This document shows positions 2,713 to 28,476 of a stretch of DNA of 32,991 bases, piece after piece (within the stretch, counting starts at the first letter, position 1; each line of letters starts with the position of its first letter). Under the pieces are notes generated by a model, which was not told the DNA's origin, searched no databases, and worked only from the letters and a program-made list of their open reading frames with translations. The stretch spans positions 1 to 32,991 of the forward strand of contig JAPOZO010000048.1 in NCBI GenBank assembly GCA_026706025.1, in the 5' to 3' direction. The stretch comes from Candidatus Poribacteria bacterium. Its GTDB lineage: Bacteria > Poribacteria > WGA-4E > WGA-3G. The position numbers were made by a program, and so were the translations under genes.

Positions 2713-4413
2713 CTACTTTAATTCATGCAGTTCTGTGAGTTTGTCTAACACGGCCTTATTCCCCGGTTCCAATTCTAAAACCCGTTCAAAAGCACCAATC
2801 GCCTCTGGAATATTTCCAAGTTCCTGATAAGCAACACCTAATGCTCCGTATGCGCGAACGTGCGTCGCCTCAATTGCGATAACCTTTTTAAAGAGTGAGA
2901 TGGCTTCGAGATAATCCTTCTTTGTCAGAAAAATTAAGCCGAGTCTGTAAATGGCTTGGACATCGGTTGCGTCATGGGTGATGACCTGTTTATAGTGTGG
3001 CTCGGCTGCTGTATAACGCTGTTTTTTCCAATAGGCACCGGCAAGCGCGCGATGCGCGGACAGTTGAGATGGGACGAGTTCAAGTGCTGCCTGATAGTGC
3101 CGAATTGCCTCTCCAAGCTGTCCTGTGTTCTCATACACTGTCGCAAGATTCGCGTGTACATTTGAGAAAAAAGTGGCGTAATCTGAAGGGTTTAACTGTT
3201 CGGGAGATTCGCTATCTGTTTTATTTTTTTTAAACTGAAGTGCCATTTGGCAGGCACGGATCGCTGCAGTGGTCTGTCCGGTTTCATAATAGATCTGTCC
3301 TATATAGTTATGCGCCTGCGCTTTCAAGTAGGCTCTCTCGTCTGTACTTCTCTGCTTCTGAACCTCTATATCCTTGTCGAGTAGCAACAGAAGGTGTTCT
3401 AATACTGCCAAGGCTTCGGGGTGCTGTGCTGTGTAGAGGAGTGAAACGCCATAGTCGAACCAGACCTTTATATCTTTCTGTTCGTCTGAGATAAGCGTCT
3501 CAAATTCAGCGACAGCACTTGTATAATCGCCTTCTGACATATAACGTCTACCGCGTTCGGCGTACAACGATGCAGTGACACCTGCCTGCAGCACATCCCA
3601 CCACAGCGGGTCCGATAACTCGCCATATTGACTCGGATGGCGTGCTGCTTGTGCGTGTCGTTTTGCCGCTTGCTTATCCCCTAATGCTGTAACAACCTGT
3701 GCCATCAATGCATGCGCTTCAGTTTGCCGCGGATTCAGGCGCAGTGCGTTCTCTAAATGTCTTTTGGCAAGTTTCACTTGTTGTCTTGCAAGTGCAATTT
3801 CGCCGAGCCAGAGTTCAGAAAACGGGTTGTTCGGTTGAAAGTGTTTCGCGCGTTCCAAGTGATGTCTCGCATCTTCAAGCTTCCCTAAAATTCGGAGTGC
3901 AGAAGCAAGATAGAGATGCCCGGGCGCGTATTCCGGGTTCAACATAAGTGCTCGCGTGAGATGCTCGACTGCTTCCTCCGGTTGACGCTCCTTCGTCAAA
4001 CGTCCCAAAAAGTAGAACCATCTGAATTCCTTAGGCGCGAGTATACTCGCTCGACGATAACACGGTATCGCTGGTGTCTCCCAACCATGGATGAGATAGA
4101 CGTGCCCCAATTGACCCCAGACATCCGCATCATCAGGAGAATTCCGCACGGCTTCTTGTGCAGTTTCAATTGCCTCCAAAAGCAATTTCTCCTCAACTAA
4201 GTCAAGGTCTGCAGGCTGTGGAATAGTGGTCAGTACGGATTTTTTTTCAAAAAATCCTTTCAGTTGTCGGTTGTCAGTTACAAGAGGTTTCTCGTCTACG
4301 TTTCCGTCCTTTACCTGACTGCTGCTCGCTGATTGCCGATTGCTAATTTCACTAACCGCAAAAACAGGTAGGCTAATTAGCATGAGAAGAAAAAAGAGAA
4401 TTGATTTTATCAA
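2713..4413 (-). CDS. Exported TPR-repeat protein, translationally coupled to the UnbV gene
   Basis: I place the start at a TTG (4413-4411) that shares TTGA with the upstream gene's TGA stop and follows a GGGG Shine-Dalgarno 7 bases away. The frame stays open upstream to 4497, but that would overlap the previous gene by 88 bases and put a basic stretch before the signal peptide. From the TTG the product is 566 residues and opens with a clean signal peptide ending PVFA. A low-complexity linker of about 60 residues follows. TPR units then run from about residue 80 to the end, with a break near 260-290. TPR arrays mediate protein-protein contacts. Pairing with an FG-GAP/UnbV protein is common in several environmental phyla, but the joint function is unknown. 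The linker is built from repeat-like DNA (see findings). Confidence 0.8.
   Translation of the reverse strand: MIKSILFFLLMLISLPVFAVSEISNRQSASSSQVKDGNVDEKPLVTDNRQLKGFFEKKSVLTTIPQPADLDLVEEKLLLEAIETAQEAVRNSPDDADVWGQLGHVYLIHGWETPAIPCYRRASILAPKEFRWFYFLGRLTKERQPEEAVEHLTRALMLNPEYAPGHLYLASALRILGKLEDARHHLERAKHFQPNNPFSELWLGEIALARQQVKLAKRHLENALRLNPRQTEAHALMAQVVTALGDKQAAKRHAQAARHPSQYGELSDPLWWDVLQAGVTASLYAERGRRYMSEGDYTSAVAEFETLISDEQKDIKVWFDYGVSLLYTAQHPEALAVLEHLLLLLDKDIEVQKQRSTDERAYLKAQAHNYIGQIYYETGQTTAAIRACQMALQFKKNKTDSESPEQLNPSDYATFFSNVHANLATVYENTGQLGEAIRHYQAALELVPSQLSAHRALAGAYWKKQRYTAAEPHYKQVITHDATDVQAIYRLGLIFLTKKDYLEAISLFKKVIAIEATHVRAYGALGVAYQELGNIPEAIGAFERVLELEPGNKAVLDKLTELHELK
4230..4345 (-). repeat. 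Interspersed-repeat-derived segment inside the TPR coding sequence
   Basis: The inverted repeat GGATTTTTT (4237-4245) / AAAAAATCC (4249-4257) with its flank reading CTGAAAGG on the minus strand is almost identical to intergenic DNA at 8763-8796. It is followed by TTGTCGG/TTGTCAG heptamers (4262-4280) and further 7-base units near 4320-4345. All of it is translated as the linker between signal peptide and TPRs. Confidence 0.65.
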
Positions 4414-6161
4414 AAAGGCACCCCTTTTCCTTGATAAACCTTTACACGTTGATTCGCAGGTGTCCCTGGGAATCTCTCGCGGCTTCCGTCTTGCCAATAC
4501 ACGTCAATCGCTTGAATTTCACTGATTGTTCCTAACCCGAAATGCACACTCGGTTCGCTACTACTAAGATAACTCGTCCCAGACAGCACATAGCCTGTCA
4601 ATGTACGTGATTCAGTTTGGAGCGTTACTTGTGCCCCGAGTGCACCTCGATTTTCGGTGATAGCTTGCACGAATAACCAATGATACTGAGGTGGCGGTGC
4701 GTCGTTTCGGAAAACGCGAAGCTGATTATCAAGACTGCTCACCACCATATCAATATCGCCGTCTCGGTCAATATCACCGAAAGCCATTCCGCGGCTCACC
4801 TCAACACGTTCTGTAAAGTCAGGCGCACGTGAACTCACATCACTGAAATGGGCTGTCGGAAACCCTCGGAGACCGTCAGGGGTCGTAGAGGTTGGGTTGC
4901 CCAACCCATGCGGACGAGGCAACCTCGCCCTTACGACAGCTGATGGCTGATTGCTATTTCGGAAGAGGAGATTGGGTTCGGCATAAAAATTCCAGAATTC
5001 GCCAACATCTGCTCCATCCAAGATCTCCCCGCGCTTTACCCTTCCATTGACGAGCGCGATGTCAAGATCGGCATCGTTGTCGAAATCAAGGAAACCGCAT
5101 CCAAAGCCTGTCCAACGTAGGTCGCGTCCGGCGAAACCTGCTATTTCAGTCATGTCAGTAAATACAGAGTGGTTAGCGGCGATATAAAGGGTATTTGTCT
5201 CGCCGGATAAGTGCGTTGCGAAGAGGTCAGGAAGCGTATCACCGTTGATATCCCCGACAGCGACGCCCATGCTGCCTTCGGGTTGTCCGTAAGCATTAAA
5301 CGCAAGCCCATGCAATATGGCTTCCTCAGCAAAAGTGCCGTCGGTCTGGTTTACCCAGAGATAGTTCGCTTCGCCATCGTTGGCAACAAAAAAATCCGCC
5401 CAACCATCACCCGTCAGATCCAGACACACAACACCGAGGCCTCTGCCGGACATTGCGGCGATCCCTGTCTGTTCGGTCACATCTGTGAAAGAGCCGTTGC
5501 CGTTATTTTGGAACAGGCGATCTGTTGCCGGCTCAAAGACTTTTGGATTACAATAATCTGGCGCGCTGTGTTTCCCGCGACACACCATTTCTGGATCAAA
5601 TTGAACGTAGTTGGCAACATAGAGATCGAGGTCCCCATCCCTGTCGTAATCACCAAAGGTTGCGGATGTTCCCCAAGCCTCATTTGAGAGACCTACCTCT
5701 TCTAATATGAATGTACCGTCACCCTTGTTTCGATAGAAAACATCGGGACCGTAATTCGTCACATAGACATCTACGTCGCCATCATTATCGACATCACCGA
5801 TTGCCACGCCTTGTCCGTAGCCTTCGTGTCCGATGCCAGCGGTTTCCGTAACGTCAACAAACGTTCCATCGGGTTGTTGTTGAAAAAGGAGATTCGGGGC
5901 AGGTGAGTCCTCTTTGCCGGGTGGTGGAAATCGGATGTGTAGGACATCCAACGCGCCATCATTATTGTAATCAAAGAGTGCAACTCCGCTCCCGATGACC
6001 TCAGGTAGGGCATGCGTGCCTGCAGCCCAAGAAGCCTCGGTCTGTGAGAAACCGAGCGCAGCCGTCACCTCCGTAAATAGGGGTTTGTCGGTCTCTGCTT
6101 GTGCTGCCGACAGCAATCCACTTACAACAATGAATATAACAGCATATAACTTCGTAAACAT
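4410..6161 (-). CDS. Exported FG-GAP/VCBS protein with ASPIC/UnbV domain (CRTAC-like)
   Basis: A 583-residue protein with a signal peptide (1-22, ending AQA). At least seven calcium-loop motifs of FG-GAP/VCBS type are visible: DYNNDGALD (64-72), DVDNDGDVD (123-131), DYDRDGDLD (171-179), DLTGDGWAD (248-256), DINGDTLPD (304-312), DFDNDADLD (359-367) and DIDRDGDID (463-471). Together they suggest a beta-propeller. The C-terminus (about 503-575: NRGALGAQV, SGTSYLSSSEP, HFGLG, VYWQDGS) is the ASPIC/UnbV domain. Proteins of this type are extracellular or periplasmic and probably adhesive or ligand binding; no enzyme site is seen. Residues about 403-438 are an unusual Pro/Arg/Gly-rich insertion encoded by a palindromic repeat. 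The start lies 26 bases after the ATP-grasp gene and the stop overlaps the TPR gene start. Confidence 0.88.
   Translation of the reverse strand: MFTKLYAVIFIVVSGLLSAAQAETDKPLFTEVTAALGFSQTEASWAAGTHALPEVIGSGVALFDYNNDGALDVLHIRFPPPGKEDSPAPNLLFQQQPDGTFVDVTETAGIGHEGYGQGVAIGDVDNDGDVDVYVTNYGPDVFYRNKGDGTFILEEVGLSNEAWGTSATFGDYDRDGDLDLYVANYVQFDPEMVCRGKHSAPDYCNPKVFEPATDRLFQNNGNGSFTDVTEQTGIAAMSGRGLGVVCLDLTGDGWADFFVANDGEANYLWVNQTDGTFAEEAILHGLAFNAYGQPEGSMGVAVGDINGDTLPDLFATHLSGETNTLYIAANHSVFTDMTEIAGFAGRDLRWTGFGCGFLDFDNDADLDIALVNGRVKRGEILDGADVGEFWNFYAEPNLLFRNSNQPSAVVRARLPRPHGLGNPTSTTPDGLRGFPTAHFSDVSSRAPDFTERVEVSRGMAFGDIDRDGDIDMVVSSLDNQLRVFRNDAPPPQYHWLFVQAITENRGALGAQVTLQTESRTLTGYVLSGTSYLSSSEPSVHFGLGTISEIQAIDVYWQDGSRERFPGTPANQRVKVYQGKGVPF
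4882..4937 (-). repeat. Palindromic repeat inserted in frame in the UnbV coding sequence
   Basis: Outer inverted ends GTCGTA (4882-4887) and TACGAC (4932-4937) enclose two tight hairpins: GGTTGGG-TTG-CCCAACC (4890-4906) and CGAGG-CAA-CCTCG (4915-4927). Heptamer-like DNA (AGCTGATGGCTGATTGC) follows directly. The reading frame stays open across all of it. Confidence 0.75.
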
Positions 6162-8657: not shown

Positions 8658-8678
8658 CATTACGGACTACGGTTTTAG

Positions 8679-8699
8679 TTATCAGTTATCGGTCGTCAG
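8679..8699. repeat. Heptamer array (TTATCAG-type)
   Basis: Three 7-base units: TTATCAG, TTATCGG, TCGTCAG. Same family as the arrays near 12314, 17513, 18526, 20062, 21576 and 24469. Confidence 0.7.
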
Positions 8700-8762
8700 T
8701 TTGCCTCACAGTGAGAGTTACAAGAGGTTTTTGATAATTCCAACATCTCCTGTACCTGATGA

Positions 8763-12305: not shown

Positions 12306-12313
12306 TTTAATAG

Positions 12314-12341
12314 TTATAAGTTATAAGTTATAAGTTATAAG
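12314..12341. repeat. Perfect heptamer array, 4 x TTATAAG
   Basis: Four identical 7-base units stand 8 bases upstream of the uracil-DNA glycosylase start codon. The period equals that of the TTRYCAG arrays elsewhere, suggesting a variant of one family. Perfect identity suggests recent expansion by slippage. Confidence 0.85.
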
Positions 12342-12462
12342 TTAAGAGGGTTCCTGGAACAGTTCCGTCTTCTGTGAAGGTTTCCACAGAAAACCTTTTT
12401 AACTGTTAAGCAAAAGGTTTTTCGGAGGAAATCGCCTTGAAAACTGACAACGATTCCCCTGA

Positions 12463-16309: not shown

Positions 16310-17509
16310 TCACTGCGAAGCATGCCGACTGCTGAAAGCCATTTTTGTGTGATTTTTTATGAGTGAATTTGCTGTTGCTTTTGCCCACCGATCTGCCTCA
16401 AGGATATCTGGGAGTGTCGGTTCTGGAACCACAGTGTGCTTATCCATGACCTGTCCGAGGATAACCGGTATATCCATAAACCCGATGTCTGCGTTAAGAA
16501 ACGCCTCCACGACGATCTCATCTGCGCTGCTTAATACCACGGGGAGTGTGCCGCCAACGTTAGCGGCAGTATAAGCCAACGAGAGACACGGGAATTTTTC
16601 AAAATCAACAGGTTCAAAGTGTAGTGTGCGCGCCTCCTGTAGATCCAGACGTGGTACGGGTGCTGAGAGTCTACGGGGATAAGTTAAAGCGTATTGAATC
16701 ATAATACGCATATCTGTGGGACCTAATTGTGCGAGTGTAGAACCGTCTGTCCATTCCACCATAGAATGAACGATACTTTCCGGGTGAACAACGATGTCAA
16801 TTTTTGAGAGTTCTATATTAAATAACCATTTCGCTTCGATGACCTCCAGCCCTTTGTTCATCATCGTTGCGGAATCAATAGTAATTTTTGGTCCCATCTT
16901 CCAATTCGGGTGCTGGAGTGCTTGTGCTGGCGTTACAGAATAGAGTTCCGCTTTCGGTACCTTTCGGAAGGGACCGCCAGAAGCAGTAATCAGGAGTCGA
17001 TGGATTTCTGCTTGTTGGTCGCGTGTGCCTTCCAAACATTGGAAGATGGCACTCATTTCGCCATCTATAGGTATTAAGTTAACGCCATTTGTCTTAACCG
17101 CTGCGTTAACAAGCGGTCCCGCCATGACCATTACTTCTTTATTTACAAAAGCAATGTCTTTGCCGGCGTTGATCGCCGCCAAGGTCGGTAATAAACCTGC
17201 GCTACCGCCCATGCCATCTAAGACTTGAGAGGCTTGCGGCATTGTGGCTACGGCTTGAAGTCCCTCGGTACCAGCGAGTATTTCTGTCCCATTGATGTCC
17301 CGAATACGCGCTCGGAGTATGCCTGCGGCAGTCGGTTCATTTACCGCCACCAACGTTGGACGATACCGCCGAATCTGTTGCTCAAGGGTATCAACGTCGC
17401 GGTTCGCTGCGAGGCCGACGACTTTAAATTCGTCAGCATGCGTTTCAACAACGCTGAGGGCGTTCTTCCCAATAGAACCCGTGCTACCGAGTATGGCGAT
17501 ATGTTTCAT
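16310..17509 (-). CDS. dxr: 1-deoxy-D-xylulose 5-phosphate reductoisomerase
   Basis: Makes 2-C-methyl-D-erythritol 4-phosphate with NADPH, the committing step of the MEP isoprenoid pathway. The 399 residues match the family. The Rossmann motif is LGSTGSIGKNAL (7-18). Metal ligands are conserved (Asp149, Glu151, Glu222), and so are SGGPFR, HPNWKMG (200-206), DSATMMNKGLEVIEA and VHPESIVHSMVEW. Two usually invariant positions differ: the loop reads DGEMSAIFQ where DSEHSAIFQ is normal, so the serine equivalent to E. coli Ser151 is Gly150, and NKESL reads NKEVM. The start codon is preceded directly by five heptamer repeats with no visible Shine-Dalgarno. It sits between cdsA and the duplicated rseP, its standard context. 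Function is still very likely DXR. Confidence 0.95.
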   Translation of the reverse strand: MKHIAILGSTGSIGKNALSVVETHADEFKVVGLAANRDVDTLEQQIRRYRPTLVAVNEPTAAGILRARIRDINGTEILAGTEGLQAVATMPQASQVLDGMGGSAGLLPTLAAINAGKDIAFVNKEVMVMAGPLVNAAVKTNGVNLIPIDGEMSAIFQCLEGTRDQQAEIHRLLITASGGPFRKVPKAELYSVTPAQALQHPNWKMGPKITIDSATMMNKGLEVIEAKWLFNIELSKIDIVVHPESIVHSMVEWTDGSTLAQLGPTDMRIMIQYALTYPRRLSAPVPRLDLQEARTLHFEPVDFEKFPCLSLAYTAANVGGTLPVVLSSADEIVVEAFLNADIGFMDIPVILGQVMDKHTVVPEPTLPDILEADRWAKATANSLIKNHTKMAFSSRHASQ

Positions 17510-17512
17510 TAG

Positions 17513-17547
17513 TTGTCAGTTATCAGTTGTCAGTTATCAGTTGTCAG
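17513..17547. repeat. Heptamer array, five units, abutting the dxr start codon
   Basis: TTGTCAG and TTATCAG alternate perfectly (G-A-G-A-G at the third base) over 35 bases, ending 3 bases from the dxr ATG. No ribosome binding site lies between array and start. Confidence 0.9.
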
Positions 17548-17634
17548 TCACTTTTAAAAATCCACTCCAACTTGGCGCGCCTCAAGAATTGGTGAATTGT
17601 TAGGTCAAAACCGCCTCACTGAAAACTGAGGGCT

Positions 17635-18525: not shown

Positions 18526-18618
18526 TTGTCAGTTACCAGTTACCAGTTACCAGTTGTCAGTTACCAGTGACCAGTTAAGGATGTCTCATCAAGTTCTTAA
18601 CTGGTTACTGGTTACTGG
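18526..18618. repeat. Inverted heptamer arrays forming a long hairpin between frr and cdsA
   Basis: Seven units of TTACCAG type (18526-18574) are followed by an inverted array. The arms 18557-18579 and 18596-18618 pair over 23 positions with few mismatches, including CCAGTTAAG with CTTAACTGG. The loop of 16 bases holds a small GATG/CATC stem. A related inverted stretch continues to about 18645. Confidence 0.75.
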
Positions 18619-20061: not shown

Positions 20062-20108
20062 TTGTCAGTTGTCAGTCCAAGTAGTTATCAGTTGTCAGTT
20101 GTCAGTTG
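20062..20108. repeat. Heptamer array upstream of tsf
   Basis: Units TTGTCAG (20062-20075, two copies), then TTATCAG and TTGTCAG (20085-20098), a 3-base interruption and another TTGTCAG (20102-20108). They lie just upstream of the tsf ribosome binding site. Confidence 0.75.
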
Positions 20109-20145
20109 TCAGTTAAAGAGGTTTACTTGGACTTGAACAGTCCAA

Positions 20146-23341: not shown

Positions 23342-24463
23342 TTATAGTGAAATCTTTCCCTCACGTATCGTTAGTGCCGCCTTCAACTTTTGATTTCCGA
23401 TAAATTTTGTCCCGTGGGCATCAAAGTATTCAAATTCACCGTCAAGGGCTTCAAATACCGCAACATCTGCGACGGTACCAACTTTCAGATGACCGAGCTG
23501 CGCCTCACGTTGAATAGCCTTCGCGGCACTGAAGGTCGCCTTGTCAATTACCTCTTCAAGTGACAAACCTAAGTGCATCAATTTCGATAGTGTTGTCGGC
23601 AGATCGTAGACGGGACCGTTGATGTTTCCAGTGTGAAGATCGGTGCTGATAACATCGGAGATAAAACCCTGTTCGATAGCACGTTGGGCAATTTCGTAAT
23701 GAAAACTGCCAGCCCCGTGACCGACATCAAAGATAACACCGTCTTCGCGGGCCTTCCATGCCTCGGGAATGACCCTACCTTTTTCGTCAACGATATTATC
23801 ACCGTTGCCTTGGAAACAGTGCGTAATCACATCACCGGGGCGGAGTAATTTCAAAATATCGGGGAGCGGCACACCGGCACCGATATGGCACATCACAGAT
23901 GTTCCAGCGCGCTCGGCGGCTTGGATAGCAAGTTTCAAGGGTTCAACACCGTTATCACCGACCTGACCTTTCCCTTGACGTACTTTCACGCCGACGGTGA
24001 TGTCGCGATGCTGTTGTAATGTTGCCGCAACGCGTCCGGGATCGGCATAGGCTATATCAAACATTTCGCCCACAGGTCCGTAGACGAGTCCAATACCTGA
24101 GATGTGAATGTAGGTAAGGATATTTGTCTGGGCGGGTTCGGCAATGAATTCTCGGAAACCGGGAAATGTCACCCAACTCGGGCTCCCGGCATCCACAACA
24201 GTGGTAGTCCCTGCCATCGGGCAAATCGCGTCGGCTCTAATGCCCCATGTTGTTACACCGTAATAGACGTGTGTGTGGATATCAACCAGTCCGGGTGTTA
24301 CGTATTTATCTTTCACAGAGACGGTCTGTGTCGCTGCAGTATCGGGAATGTCGGGTTCAATTGCTGCGATAACACCGTCAGCAATTGCGACATCTCGCAC
24401 TGCATTCAAACCTTGCGCGGCATCAATGACAGTGCCATCTTTCAGTAGGATGTCATACTTCAT
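23342..24463 (-). CDS. Metal-dependent amidohydrolase/deacetylase, dihydroorotase-like
   Basis: A 373-residue amidohydrolase-superfamily enzyme. The flanking beta-sandwich (1-55, DILLKDGTVIDAAQGL) and C-terminal return (LGHLKVGTVADVAVFE) are typical. Metal ligands are HTH (His63, His65), a probable carboxylated Lys160 in VGVKVRQGKG, His193 in MCHIG, His215 in THCFQG and the catalytic Asp275 in STDLHTGN. The DxHTHVYYG and KVRQ pattern is that of the AHA_3915/EF_0837-type amidohydrolase/deacetylase group rather than pyrimidine dihydroorotase. The substrate is probably an N-acyl amino acid or cyclic ureide (inference). The ATG is preceded almost directly by TTATCAG repeats with no visible Shine-Dalgarno. 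It lies 78 bases after queE. Confidence 0.85.
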   Translation of the reverse strand: MKYDILLKDGTVIDAAQGLNAVRDVAIADGVIAAIEPDIPDTAATQTVSVKDKYVTPGLVDIHTHVYYGVTTWGIRADAICPMAGTTTVVDAGSPSWVTFPGFREFIAEPAQTNILTYIHISGIGLVYGPVGEMFDIAYADPGRVAATLQQHRDITVGVKVRQGKGQVGDNGVEPLKLAIQAAERAGTSVMCHIGAGVPLPDILKLLRPGDVITHCFQGNGDNIVDEKGRVIPEAWKAREDGVIFDVGHGAGSFHYEIAQRAIEQGFISDVISTDLHTGNINGPVYDLPTTLSKLMHLGLSLEEVIDKATFSAAKAIQREAQLGHLKVGTVADVAVFEALDGEFEYFDAHGTKFIGNQKLKAALTIREGKISL

Positions 24464-24468
24464 TTTAG

Positions 24469-24503
24469 TTATCAGTTATCAGTTTTCAGTTATCAGTTAC
24501 AAG
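24469..24503. repeat. Heptamer array abutting the amidohydrolase start
   Basis: Five units: TTATCAG, TTATCAG, TTTTCAG, TTATCAG, TTACAAG. The array ends 5 bases from the ATG, leaving no space for a ribosome binding site. Confidence 0.85.
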
Positions 24504-24541
24504 ATGTTAAGGTTGAGCCCCGGAGATCATCTACAGTGAAG

Positions 24542-25944: not shown

Positions 25945-26318
25945 ATTACAATTTTTGCGCGTTGGCAACAGATGGCGGATTCCAGACAGGTTCTGTTTCT
26001 TTAATGAGATTCTTTAGAAAAAGGTGACGTACTTTTGATGAACTTAGTGAACACCTGTGTTTTAAGCGATTGATGGTGCAAATTGTCTCTGAATCTTAAC
26101 GGGTTTGACACACATATTTGCTTTTGGAAACATTGGCATAAAACTTGCTCACGCATATACTGATGTGATTCGATTTCATCTGAAGGAAGTGTCATGAAGG
26201 TGTGTTTAACTTTTTGAAGGTAACGAATATTTAAATTGAACGTTAGATAGTATAGGAATTCGGCAGAGAAGTGGATTGACATCTCAAGTGTTTTAGTAAA
26301 TGGAATAAAGAGAAAATT

Positions 26319-26660
26319 ATGGCAGCTAAAATTCGCAAAAGAAATGGCATCACGATTTTGGAACCTGGCGGTAAAATGGTGGAATCCTCCGTCCCCGAAT
26401 TACGGGAAGTAATCTTACCAGAGATAGAGGCTGCCGATGCGCCACACATTCTCATCAATTTTGAGCACGTCAATAGGATGGATAGCTCAGGACTCGGTGC
26501 CCTTGTGGAGGTACGGAGCCTTGCATCACGAAGGAATGGTCGTATCGGGGTCATCAATGTTAGTCAACAGATCAACGATCTGATTGTTCTCAGCCGACTC
26601 GTTCGGGTCTTTGAACATTACGACAGCGAAGATGCCGCAGTTTCTGGATTATCCATCTGA
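26319..26660 (+). CDS. STAS-domain anti-sigma factor antagonist, paralogue 1
   Basis: A 113-residue protein consisting of one STAS domain, the fold of SpoIIAA and RsbV, which bind anti-sigma kinases when unphosphorylated and so release a sigma factor. ILINFEHVNRMDSSGLGAL (44-62) is the hallmark; Ser57, second of the DSSG pair, corresponds to the phosphorylated serine. GRIGVINV and LIVLSRLVRVFEHYD, with a final SEDAAVSGL, complete the domain. No kinase, phosphatase or sigma factor gene lies nearby. The ribosome binding site is weak (AAGAGAA). Paralogue 2 starts 59 bases downstream with no terminator between, so the two are probably co-transcribed. Confidence 0.92.
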   Translation: MAAKIRKRNGITILEPGGKMVESSVPELREVILPEIEAADAPHILINFEHVNRMDSSGLGALVEVRSLASRRNGRIGVINVSQQINDLIVLSRLVRVFEHYDSEDAAVSGLSI

Positions 26661-26719
26661 AACCGACAGTTTCTGGATAGTGTCTGAGGCAGGGAACAAA
26701 TACCTAAAAGGAGAAAATT

Positions 26720-27061
26720 ATGGCAACTGAGATTCGCCAGCAAGATGGCATCACAATTGTGGAACCGAATGGAAAAATAGTTGGACCCTCTGTATCCGAC
26801 TTACGGGAAGTAATCTTGCCGGAGATAGAGGTTTCCGAGACACCACGCATTCTCATCAATTTTGAGCACGTCAATATGATTGACAGTTCAGGCCTCGGCG
26901 CCCTTATGGAGGCACGGGCGCTCGCATCACGAAAGAACGGTCGTATCGGGGTCACCAATGTCGGGAAACACATTAGAAATCTGATTGTTCTTAGCCGGAT
27001 TGTTAGCCTCTTTGAACATTTTGATAACGTGGCTGACGGCGTTTCAGGGTTATCCACCTAA
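26720..27061 (+). CDS. STAS-domain anti-sigma factor antagonist, paralogue 2
   Basis: Exactly the same length (113) as its neighbours. The phospho-acceptor region reads MIDSSGLGALMEARALASRKNG (53-74), so Ser57 is kept. It shares the stretch LREVILPEIE with paralogue 1 alone, which makes these two the closest pair, while its C-terminus (FEHFDNVADGVSGL) is the most divergent of the four. The ATG follows AAAAGGAGAAAATT, a good ribosome binding site. A strong intrinsic terminator follows 28 bases after the stop, ending the first transcription unit of the array. Its partner protein cannot be told from the window. Confidence 0.92.
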   Translation: MATEIRQQDGITIVEPNGKIVGPSVSDLREVILPEIEVSETPRILINFEHVNMIDSSGLGALMEARALASRKNGRIGVTNVGKHIRNLIVLSRIVSLFEHFDNVADGVSGLST

Positions 27062-27088
27062 ATCCCGAAATTTTGTGTCGAAACTCAA

Positions 27089-27119
27089 AAAGGGATGTTT
27101 TAGCATCCCTTTCTTTTTT
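27089..27119 (+). terminator. Intrinsic terminator after STAS paralogue 2
   Basis: AAAGGGATG (27089-27097) and CATCCCTTT (27104-27112) pair perfectly around TTTTAG, followed by C and six T residues. Confidence 0.9.
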
Positions 27120-27148
27120 AGACGACAACAAATTTGAGTAAATTCAAA

Positions 27149-27207
27149 AAACGAACTTTTTCTGAACAGGAGTTGACTAAAGTAAACGAACCCTAAAGTA
27201 AACGAAC
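27149..27207 (+). promoter_or_regulatory. AAACGAAC repeats upstream of STAS paralogue 3
   Basis: AAACGAAC occurs at 27149-27156, 27184-27191 and 27200-27207. The last two lie within a perfect 15-base direct repeat, CTAAAGTAAACGAAC, at 27177-27191 and 27193-27207 (period 16). A related leader with one AAACGAAC (27989-27996) and TGACTAAA precedes paralogue 4. A regulator or alternative-sigma binding site is a reasonable inference. Confidence 0.5.
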
Positions 27208-27306
27208 ATTTAAACTGAACGTTTAATTATGTAAAATTCAAAAGAGCAGTCAACTAATATTTCAAAATACCCATCAAAGTAGAAAAAAACAAAAAAGGAA
27301 AAAATC

Positions 27307-27648
27307 ATGATTACTAAAATTCGCGAGCAAAACGGCATCTCAATTGTGGAACCCAGCGGAAAAATAATGGGACCCGCAGCATCGGAATTATGGGACGCGA
27401 TTTCACCGCAGATAAAGGCTTCCGATACACCTCGCATCCTCATCAATTTTGAACACGTCAATAGAGTTGATAGCTCAGGCCTCGGTGCCCTCATGATCGC
27501 ACGTGCTGCTATAGCACGAAAGAAAGGTCGTGTTGGGGTCATCAATGTCAGCAAACATATCAATAACCTGATTGTTCTGAGTCGTCTCGCGAGCCTCTTT
27601 GAACGGTTCGACAGCGAGGACGCTGCGATTTCCGCATTAGCAGCTTAA
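27307..27648 (+). CDS. STAS-domain anti-sigma factor antagonist, paralogue 3
   Basis: Third 113-residue STAS protein. VDSSGLGALMIARAAIARKKG (54-74) keeps Ser57. It differs from the others before the core (SELWDAISPQIKASD at 26-40) and at the end (ALAA), while the ILINFEHVN and LIVLSRL blocks are unchanged. That pattern suggests shared fold and partner type with a varied surface. The ATG follows AAAAAGGAAAAAATC. It has its own spacer, with AAACGAAC repeats upstream and a terminator just after, so it is probably an independent transcript. Confidence 0.92.
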   Translation: MITKIREQNGISIVEPSGKIMGPAASELWDAISPQIKASDTPRILINFEHVNRVDSSGLGALMIARAAIARKKGRVGVINVSKHINNLIVLSRLASLFERFDSEDAAISALAA

Positions 27649-27672
27649 AACCCAAAATTCTGGGCATTTCAT

Positions 27673-27701
27673 AAGGGGGTGGTTTTACCACTCCCTTTTT
27701 T
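27673..27701 (+). terminator. Intrinsic terminator after STAS paralogue 3
   Basis: AAGGGGGTGGT (27673-27683) and ACCACTCCCTT (27687-27697), one G-T wobble, loop TTT, then T residues through 27701. The stem-loop core resembles that after paralogue 4. The rest of 27649-28109 is AT-rich spacer carrying the leader of paralogue 4 and no gene that I can see. Confidence 0.88.
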
Positions 27702-28109
27702 GTTTTGCACGCTTCTGTCGTTATTCGCTTAGTTTTTCGAATCGCGATCTACCCCAAAAACACTAATTTTGGATTAAATACGCCAATAAACCTTATTTTT
27801 TGCGATTTTTCTAAAAATTTTGCACCCTTTTTACTAACGAAATGCGTCATTAACAATTGAAAGCATCGCTAATCGGAAAATAGACTTGAAGAAAAACAGA
27901 CGTCCGTAGCGTTTGTCTTACAAAAGGATTGGTGAGTCGAACGGCGGGGTTTGATTCAAACGTGGATATTTATGAGATACTTTGAAAAAAACGAACTTTT
28001 TTTGATCGTATCTGACTAAACTATCAAATAAGCAAATTGAAAGTTCAAAAAATTTAGAGAAGCGAATTGCCAACTTTAATGTTTTAGCAAAATTAAAAGG
28101 GAGTAAATC

Positions 28110-28451
28110 ATGACCACTAAAATTCGTCAACAAAACGGCATCACAATTTTGGAACCCAACGGAAAACTAATGGGACCCTCTGTATCCGAATTACAGACAG
28201 CACTTTCGCCACAGTTAGAGACATCTGATGCCCCTCGCATCCTTATTAATTTCGAGCACGTCAATAAAATCGACAGTTCAGGACTTGGTGCACTTATGGG
28301 AGTCCGTGCCGTGACAGCACGAAAGAAAGGGCGTATCGGGGTCATCAATGTCAGTAAACAGATCAAAAATCTGGTTGTTCTCAGTCGGCTCGTTCGGGTC
28401 TTTGAACATTATGACAGCGAGGCTGCAGCGGTTTCGGCACTATCCGTCTAA
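28110..28451 (+). CDS. STAS-domain anti-sigma factor antagonist, paralogue 4
   Basis: Fourth 113-residue STAS protein. IDSSGLGALMGVRAVTARKKG (54-74) keeps Ser57. It ends LVRVFEHYDSEAAAVSAL, like paralogue 1, but shares NGKLMGPSVSEL and TARKKGR features with 2 and 3, as expected from repeated duplication with gene conversion. AAAAGGGAG precedes the ATG. The upstream region contains AAAAAACGAAC and TGACTAAA in the same order as before paralogue 3. A very strong terminator follows. It is the last of the array; the heparinase-like gene after it has its own promoter. Confidence 0.92.
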   Translation: MTTKIRQQNGITILEPNGKLMGPSVSELQTALSPQLETSDAPRILINFEHVNKIDSSGLGALMGVRAVTARKKGRIGVINVSKQIKNLVVLSRLVRVFEHYDSEAAAVSALSV

Positions 28452-28476
28452 AATCCAAAATCTTTGGAACTTCAAA

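Follow-up and report, generated by a model that had tools for sequence, protein, structure and literature searches.

How a palindromic repeat with two hairpins comes to lie within the coding sequence of a bacterial gene, and whether the peptide that it encodes matters to the protein, are the questions raised by a locus in Candidatus Poribacteria. The window, that is, the whole stretch of DNA analysed here, comprises 32,991 nucleotides of contig JAPOZO010000048.1 from GCA_026706025.1, a metagenome-assembled genome of 6.27 Mb in 103 contigs. The following features were located in it, the stems of the element being defined by its fold and by pair counts.

4410-6161, minus strand: gene for an UnbV/FG-GAP protein of 583 aa with a signal-like N-terminus (Pfam FG-GAP_3, UnbV_ASPIC)
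4883-4936, minus strand: palindromic element of 54 nt, two hairpins within an outer stem, encoding most of residues 409-427 (VVRARLPRPHGLGNPTSTT)
4932-4936, minus strand: 5' arm of the outer stem, TCGTA
4912-4930, minus strand: hairpin 1, GGGCGAGG/CCTCGTCC
4890-4906, minus strand: hairpin 2, GGTTGGG/CCCAACC
4883-4887, minus strand: 3' arm of the outer stem, TACGA
4938-4961, minus strand: heptamer-like DNA upstream in the gene, encoding RNSNQPSA (residues 401-408)
4845-4880, minus strand: heptamer-like DNA downstream in the gene, encoding PDGLRGFPTAHF (residues 428-439), variable among orthologues
8665-8703, 12307-12345, 17499-17565, 18526-18592, 20078-20130 and 24462-24514: examples of arrays of 7-bp units like TTGTCAGTTATCAG

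Read on the minus strand, 4883-4936 is TCGTAAGGGCGAGGTTGCCTCGTCCGCATGGGTTGGGCAACCCAACCTCTACGA, in which the TCGTA/TACGA outer stem encloses both hairpins; folded as single-stranded DNA, it reaches -15.3 kcal/mol (z = -4.15), and 0 of 200 shuffles folded equally well. The first-pass annotation had described a 56-base unit with inverted ends and two inner hairpins that is translated without breaking the frame. Its sequence and positions are borne out, and the reading frame is open across the whole palindrome and throughout the 583-residue ORF, but the unit that repeats in the family is 54 nt long, the outermost G/C pair (4882/4937) lying outside the family consensus. The window holds one convincing copy of the palindrome, which a covariance model matched at E = 1.1e-25 in a whole-genome search.

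Together with three adjoining bases, the element encodes residues 409-427 of the protein. The anchors LLF and DVS are 49 residues apart in the window protein and mostly 18 apart in homologues from other phyla (Acidobacteria, Verrucomicrobia, Planctomycetes and others), and the annotated view that residues 403-438 are additional to FG-GAP relatives agrees with this surplus of about 31 residues. Alignment with UnbV homologues, both close and distant, found the inserted residues absent, and no distant genome carried the same residues. Within the genus, the interval in UnbV orthologues is 11-72 residues long. Those of G000, G015, G029, G005 and G011, which cluster together with G006, contain the element; as G006 is without the element, a loss or an earlier split is needed. 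The more distant G019 has a partial copy in a different frame (GRGEAPSSARVGQ), other orthologues have heptamer-derived sequence or a AAACACCCAAGCAAAAACACCC element, and seven have just 11-17 residues in all. AlphaFold assigned pLDDT <50 to residues 407-433, between strands 398-402 and 439-441, a confidence that is also lowered by the few sequences aligning there, and this suggests that the insert forms a disordered loop.

The palindrome is not peculiar to this gene. The nucleotide search of the source genome and its relatives, in which the absence of any further copy would have counted against the first-pass reading, found the unit dispersed in both, with seven more close copies in its own genome at E < 1e-6. 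At E<=0.01, the source genome has about 53 distinct places matched by the covariance model, many as single hairpins, and 37 of the 38 genomes of the genus have matches, although hairpin 1 was paired one base out of register in this census model, which may have made the census slightly insensitive; the pair counts use the corrected structure. Strong matches extend to several families of the order, and beyond the order they are at most weak. In a genome of another family, a cluster of the palindrome family (L413, G038:C6:12322-13604) holds several copies about 102 bp apart. An alignment of 64 full-length copies has 95.3% of its pair cells paired and shows two-sided changes in 30 cells, against 7.9 in shuffles; as it was fitted to a model of the same structure, these counts lean towards that structure.

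Copies also lie within core metabolic genes, and those in carB, pyrC and HAM1 were confirmed in frame by comparison with solved structures and orthologues. The carB gene encodes 34 residues where E. coli CarB has about 4, and the oligomerisation-domain match stops at that point; in pyrC, the element directly precedes the metal-binding segment; in HAM1/RdgB, it lies between LRR and AYEVVSLN. Further in-frame copies were found in WD40, GspK-like, transporter-like and TPR/FG-GAP genes, names that were read from the sequence rather than from a Pfam search. In the source genome, 19 of the 53 places are intragenic, as judged by an open frame and the codon score on both sides, and by the same criterion so are 205 of 400 positions drawn at random from the window and the surroundings of these loci; residence in genes is thus below chance yet far from excluded. 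Under a stricter rule, 21 of the 64 full-length copies are intragenic, several of them orthologous, which leaves about a dozen genes. They use four reading frames (11, 8, 1 and 1 copies), the four of the six that are free of stops; frames five and six contain the TAG of GTAG. The coding copies are oriented 19 to 2, a bias that falls to about 10 to 2 genes once orthologues are removed. As a separate observation, HAM1 orthologues (L278-L306) carry a different extra segment in nearly every species at the codons after ELTEMLR, and one of these (SSTDNFAQARVLGQN) resembles the UnbV insert of G001 (SSTDTFAKARVVGQG), a likeness that points to another dispersed coding repeat.

Such well-preserved stems raise the alternative that the hairpins act on mRNA or DNA, through stability, translational pausing or the binding of gyrase or another protein, and are kept in genes for this reason. 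Among the UnbV carriers, the total divergence of the element is also lower than that of flank synonymous sites, which would suit such a role and counts against a wholly neutral old insertion; some constraint on the element is possible, as is homogenisation between copies. However, most orthologues of the same host genes (UnbV, pyrC, HAM1 and carB) are without the element, its copies keep to no consistent position or gene class, and upkeep of the stems is equally expected if the hairpin serves mobility alone. We therefore consider a role in mRNA or DNA unlikely.

The heptamer-like flank that the first-pass annotation had pointed out is real, and its kind recurs: an exact 7-base period was found in the flanks of 26 of 58 full-length copies against 2.9 expected, and it is absent at lags of 5, 6, 8 and 9, which indicates that copies often sit in heptamer repeat DNA. 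The corresponding site in carB and UnbV of relatives is taken up by heptamer stretches that lack the palindrome, and this comparison of sequences suggests that the heptamer DNA preceded the palindrome there. In carB, the element substitutes for part of the heptamer stretch and does not merely split the heptamers, and none of the orthologues compared showed a clean 54-nt empty site whose flanks were identical. Self-complementary flanks were considered as a general rule and rejected, as they are not significant at most loci; since UnbV is among these, we do not claim that its element lies within a folded heptamer palindrome. Heptamer DNA is also common elsewhere in the window, where 7-bp units such as TTGTCAGTTATCAG form many, mostly intergenic arrays (repeat family D2), and the neighbouring TPR-type gene (2713-4497, minus strand) has in-frame heptamer-like DNA at 4255-4345 that encodes SNRQSASSSQVKDGNVDEKPLVTDNRQL, just past its signal-like N-terminus. 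A further repeat of the window, at 26298-28462, comprises four copies of an about 300-nt direct repeat and a linked 145-nt part, 73-83% identical, and each copy of the direct repeat carries a 113-aa ORF on the plus strand.

Heptamer DNA beside many copies, in numbers that vary at the same loops (UnbV and carB), would also be expected had the segment grown by local slippage or duplication of heptamers, its likeness to the dispersed unit being due to gene conversion and not to transposition. This is quite improbable in our judgement, as the palindrome itself is not heptameric, its 54-nt form is fixed across genes and genomes, and the element is also found away from heptamers, for example in the transporter-like and GspK-like genes.

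Selection could instead be acting on the encoded peptide if it had acquired a use, such as that of a linker or binding segment, which would fit its retention in five species in UnbV. On the contrary, pN/pS among the five orthologous UnbV copies is 1.38 in the element, based on 19 codons in these five carriers, compared with 0.13 in flanking codons; constraint on the encoded residues is relaxed. Moreover, the four frames yield unrelated peptides, and the element is read in two frames at a single site both in UnbV (G000 and G019) and in pyrC (G029 and G006), from which we conclude that the peptide sequence is probably unimportant. A selected peptide is thus very improbable, and most likely the peptide has no specific function. 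An assembly artefact or chimera, which a draft of 103 contigs might invite, is refuted by the assemblies of four other species, which have the element at the same codons; that of G005 is a single contig.

We infer that the element of the window is a dispersed, REP/RPE-like mobile palindrome that entered a loop-coding part of the UnbV/FG-GAP gene and is read through, a reading drawn from sequence comparison to which we give a probability of about three in four. It is supported by the dispersal of the unit, the absence of its residues in homologues, the intact frame and the predicted disordered loop; by its recurrence in unrelated core enzymes in four frames with relaxed constraint; and by the kept stems, the period-7 flanks and the presence of Y1 transposase genes in 37 of 38 genomes. 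The lack of a flanking transposase and of a clean empty site, and G006 without the element, count against it. Some Y1 genes are flanked by other GTAG hairpins, but none of the approximately 74 Y1 loci inspected had a transposase or RAYT gene flanked by the palindrome unit. L208, with a CTGGGT-type hairpin 280 bp upstream of an IS200-like gene, was rejected as the source, being just one such case. Other families of GTAG hairpins (GTAGGTGCGGTTTGCAACCGCACC, GTAGGAGCGAGCTGTGCTCGC, GTAGGCGAGGTTTCCCAACCTCGCC) flank the RAYT-like genes L062, L063, L064, L238, L240, L241 and L252.

On this reading, the palindrome probably spreads as a hairpin-forming copy, moved in trans by a Y1/HUH (RAYT-like) transposase and/or as part of MITE-like elements, and it would insert into 7-bp repeats that such loops already contain. 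Insertions that break genes would be lost and in-frame insertions in loops would survive; the element may be tolerated because its 54 nt make 18 codons, four of its six frames lack stops, and the loop accepts extra residues. A broader proposal, which we advance tentatively and at somewhat less than even odds, is that several repeat families, among them the palindrome, heptamer arrays and the AAACACCCAAGCAAAAACACCC element, keep entering the same core-protein loops and displacing one another there, so that the proteomes carry fast-changing, repeat-derived disordered segments and the repeat DNA in a loop becomes the landing site for the next repeat. The present results extend protein-coding palindromes to a large-genome, sponge-associated phylum and offer a natural experiment, in which loops of CarB, PyrC, HAM1 and UnbV with and without repeat-derived peptides can be compared across tens of related species, making the spread of repeats, the tolerance of proteins and the seeding of new linkers testable. 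They also caution that segments derived from repeats are present in gene models and protein families of Poribacteria.

Among known systems, bacterial MITEs resemble the family in that related hairpins occupy the middle of short elements bounded by long terminal inverted repeats (TTATAGTAAA; GTGAGTTTGATA). Such elements, 107-126 bp long and ending in TTATAGTAAA/TTTACTATAA, are centred on eleven distinct single hairpins of the source genome. In other species, arms like GTGAGTTTGA and TCAAACTCAC were judged by eye to flank about nine full-length copies, and a strict pattern picks out three. The coding copies differ in having the hairpin pair alone, without outer terminal repeats. GTAG REP dimers likewise have two facing hairpins with GTAG outermost, are dispersed as single and paired units, and lie in some cases within genes and in some inside larger palindromes, as described in the survey by Di Nocera, De Gregorio and Rocco (2013, PMC3733652), and the Poribacteria element is similarly dispersed as single units and head-to-head dimers. 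However, GTAG REPs are defined there by an unpaired GTAG, whereas the Poribacteria element pairs GTAG with CTAC: the GTA/TAC columns of the outer stem are paired in at least 62 of 64 copies, and GTAG is paired in single units too. Association with RAYT genes holds for part of the GTAG REP families; in Poribacteria, RAYT-like genes are present and some have other GTAG hairpins beside them, and none was seen flanked by the palindrome unit.

A parallel in behaviour is offered by the RPEs of Rickettsia, palindromic DNA that interrupts many unrelated genes in frame and is apparently tolerated there. The same is found in Poribacteria, as the first-pass annotation had anticipated; the element has a different sequence and host and begins with GTAG, a distinction drawn from the literature descriptions of RPEs. 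The annotation's further suggestion of a second lineage with this habit has to be given up, since that survey (PMC3733652) already catalogues intragenic GTAG/CGTC REPs in Opitutus, Thauera, Xanthomonas and others, some GTAG REPs adding 20-30 residues to genes of known function, and classes RPE-4 and RPE-6 as CGTC-type. Poribacteria, which do not appear in the available survey text, are a further lineage, and the literature searched, which left out most subscription journals, yielded no report of gene-embedded repeats in them. The Poribacteria element works as RPEs and intragenic REPs do and is ordinary in principle; what is notable is that it extends to core enzymes of metabolism and that different repeats have made use of the same loops.
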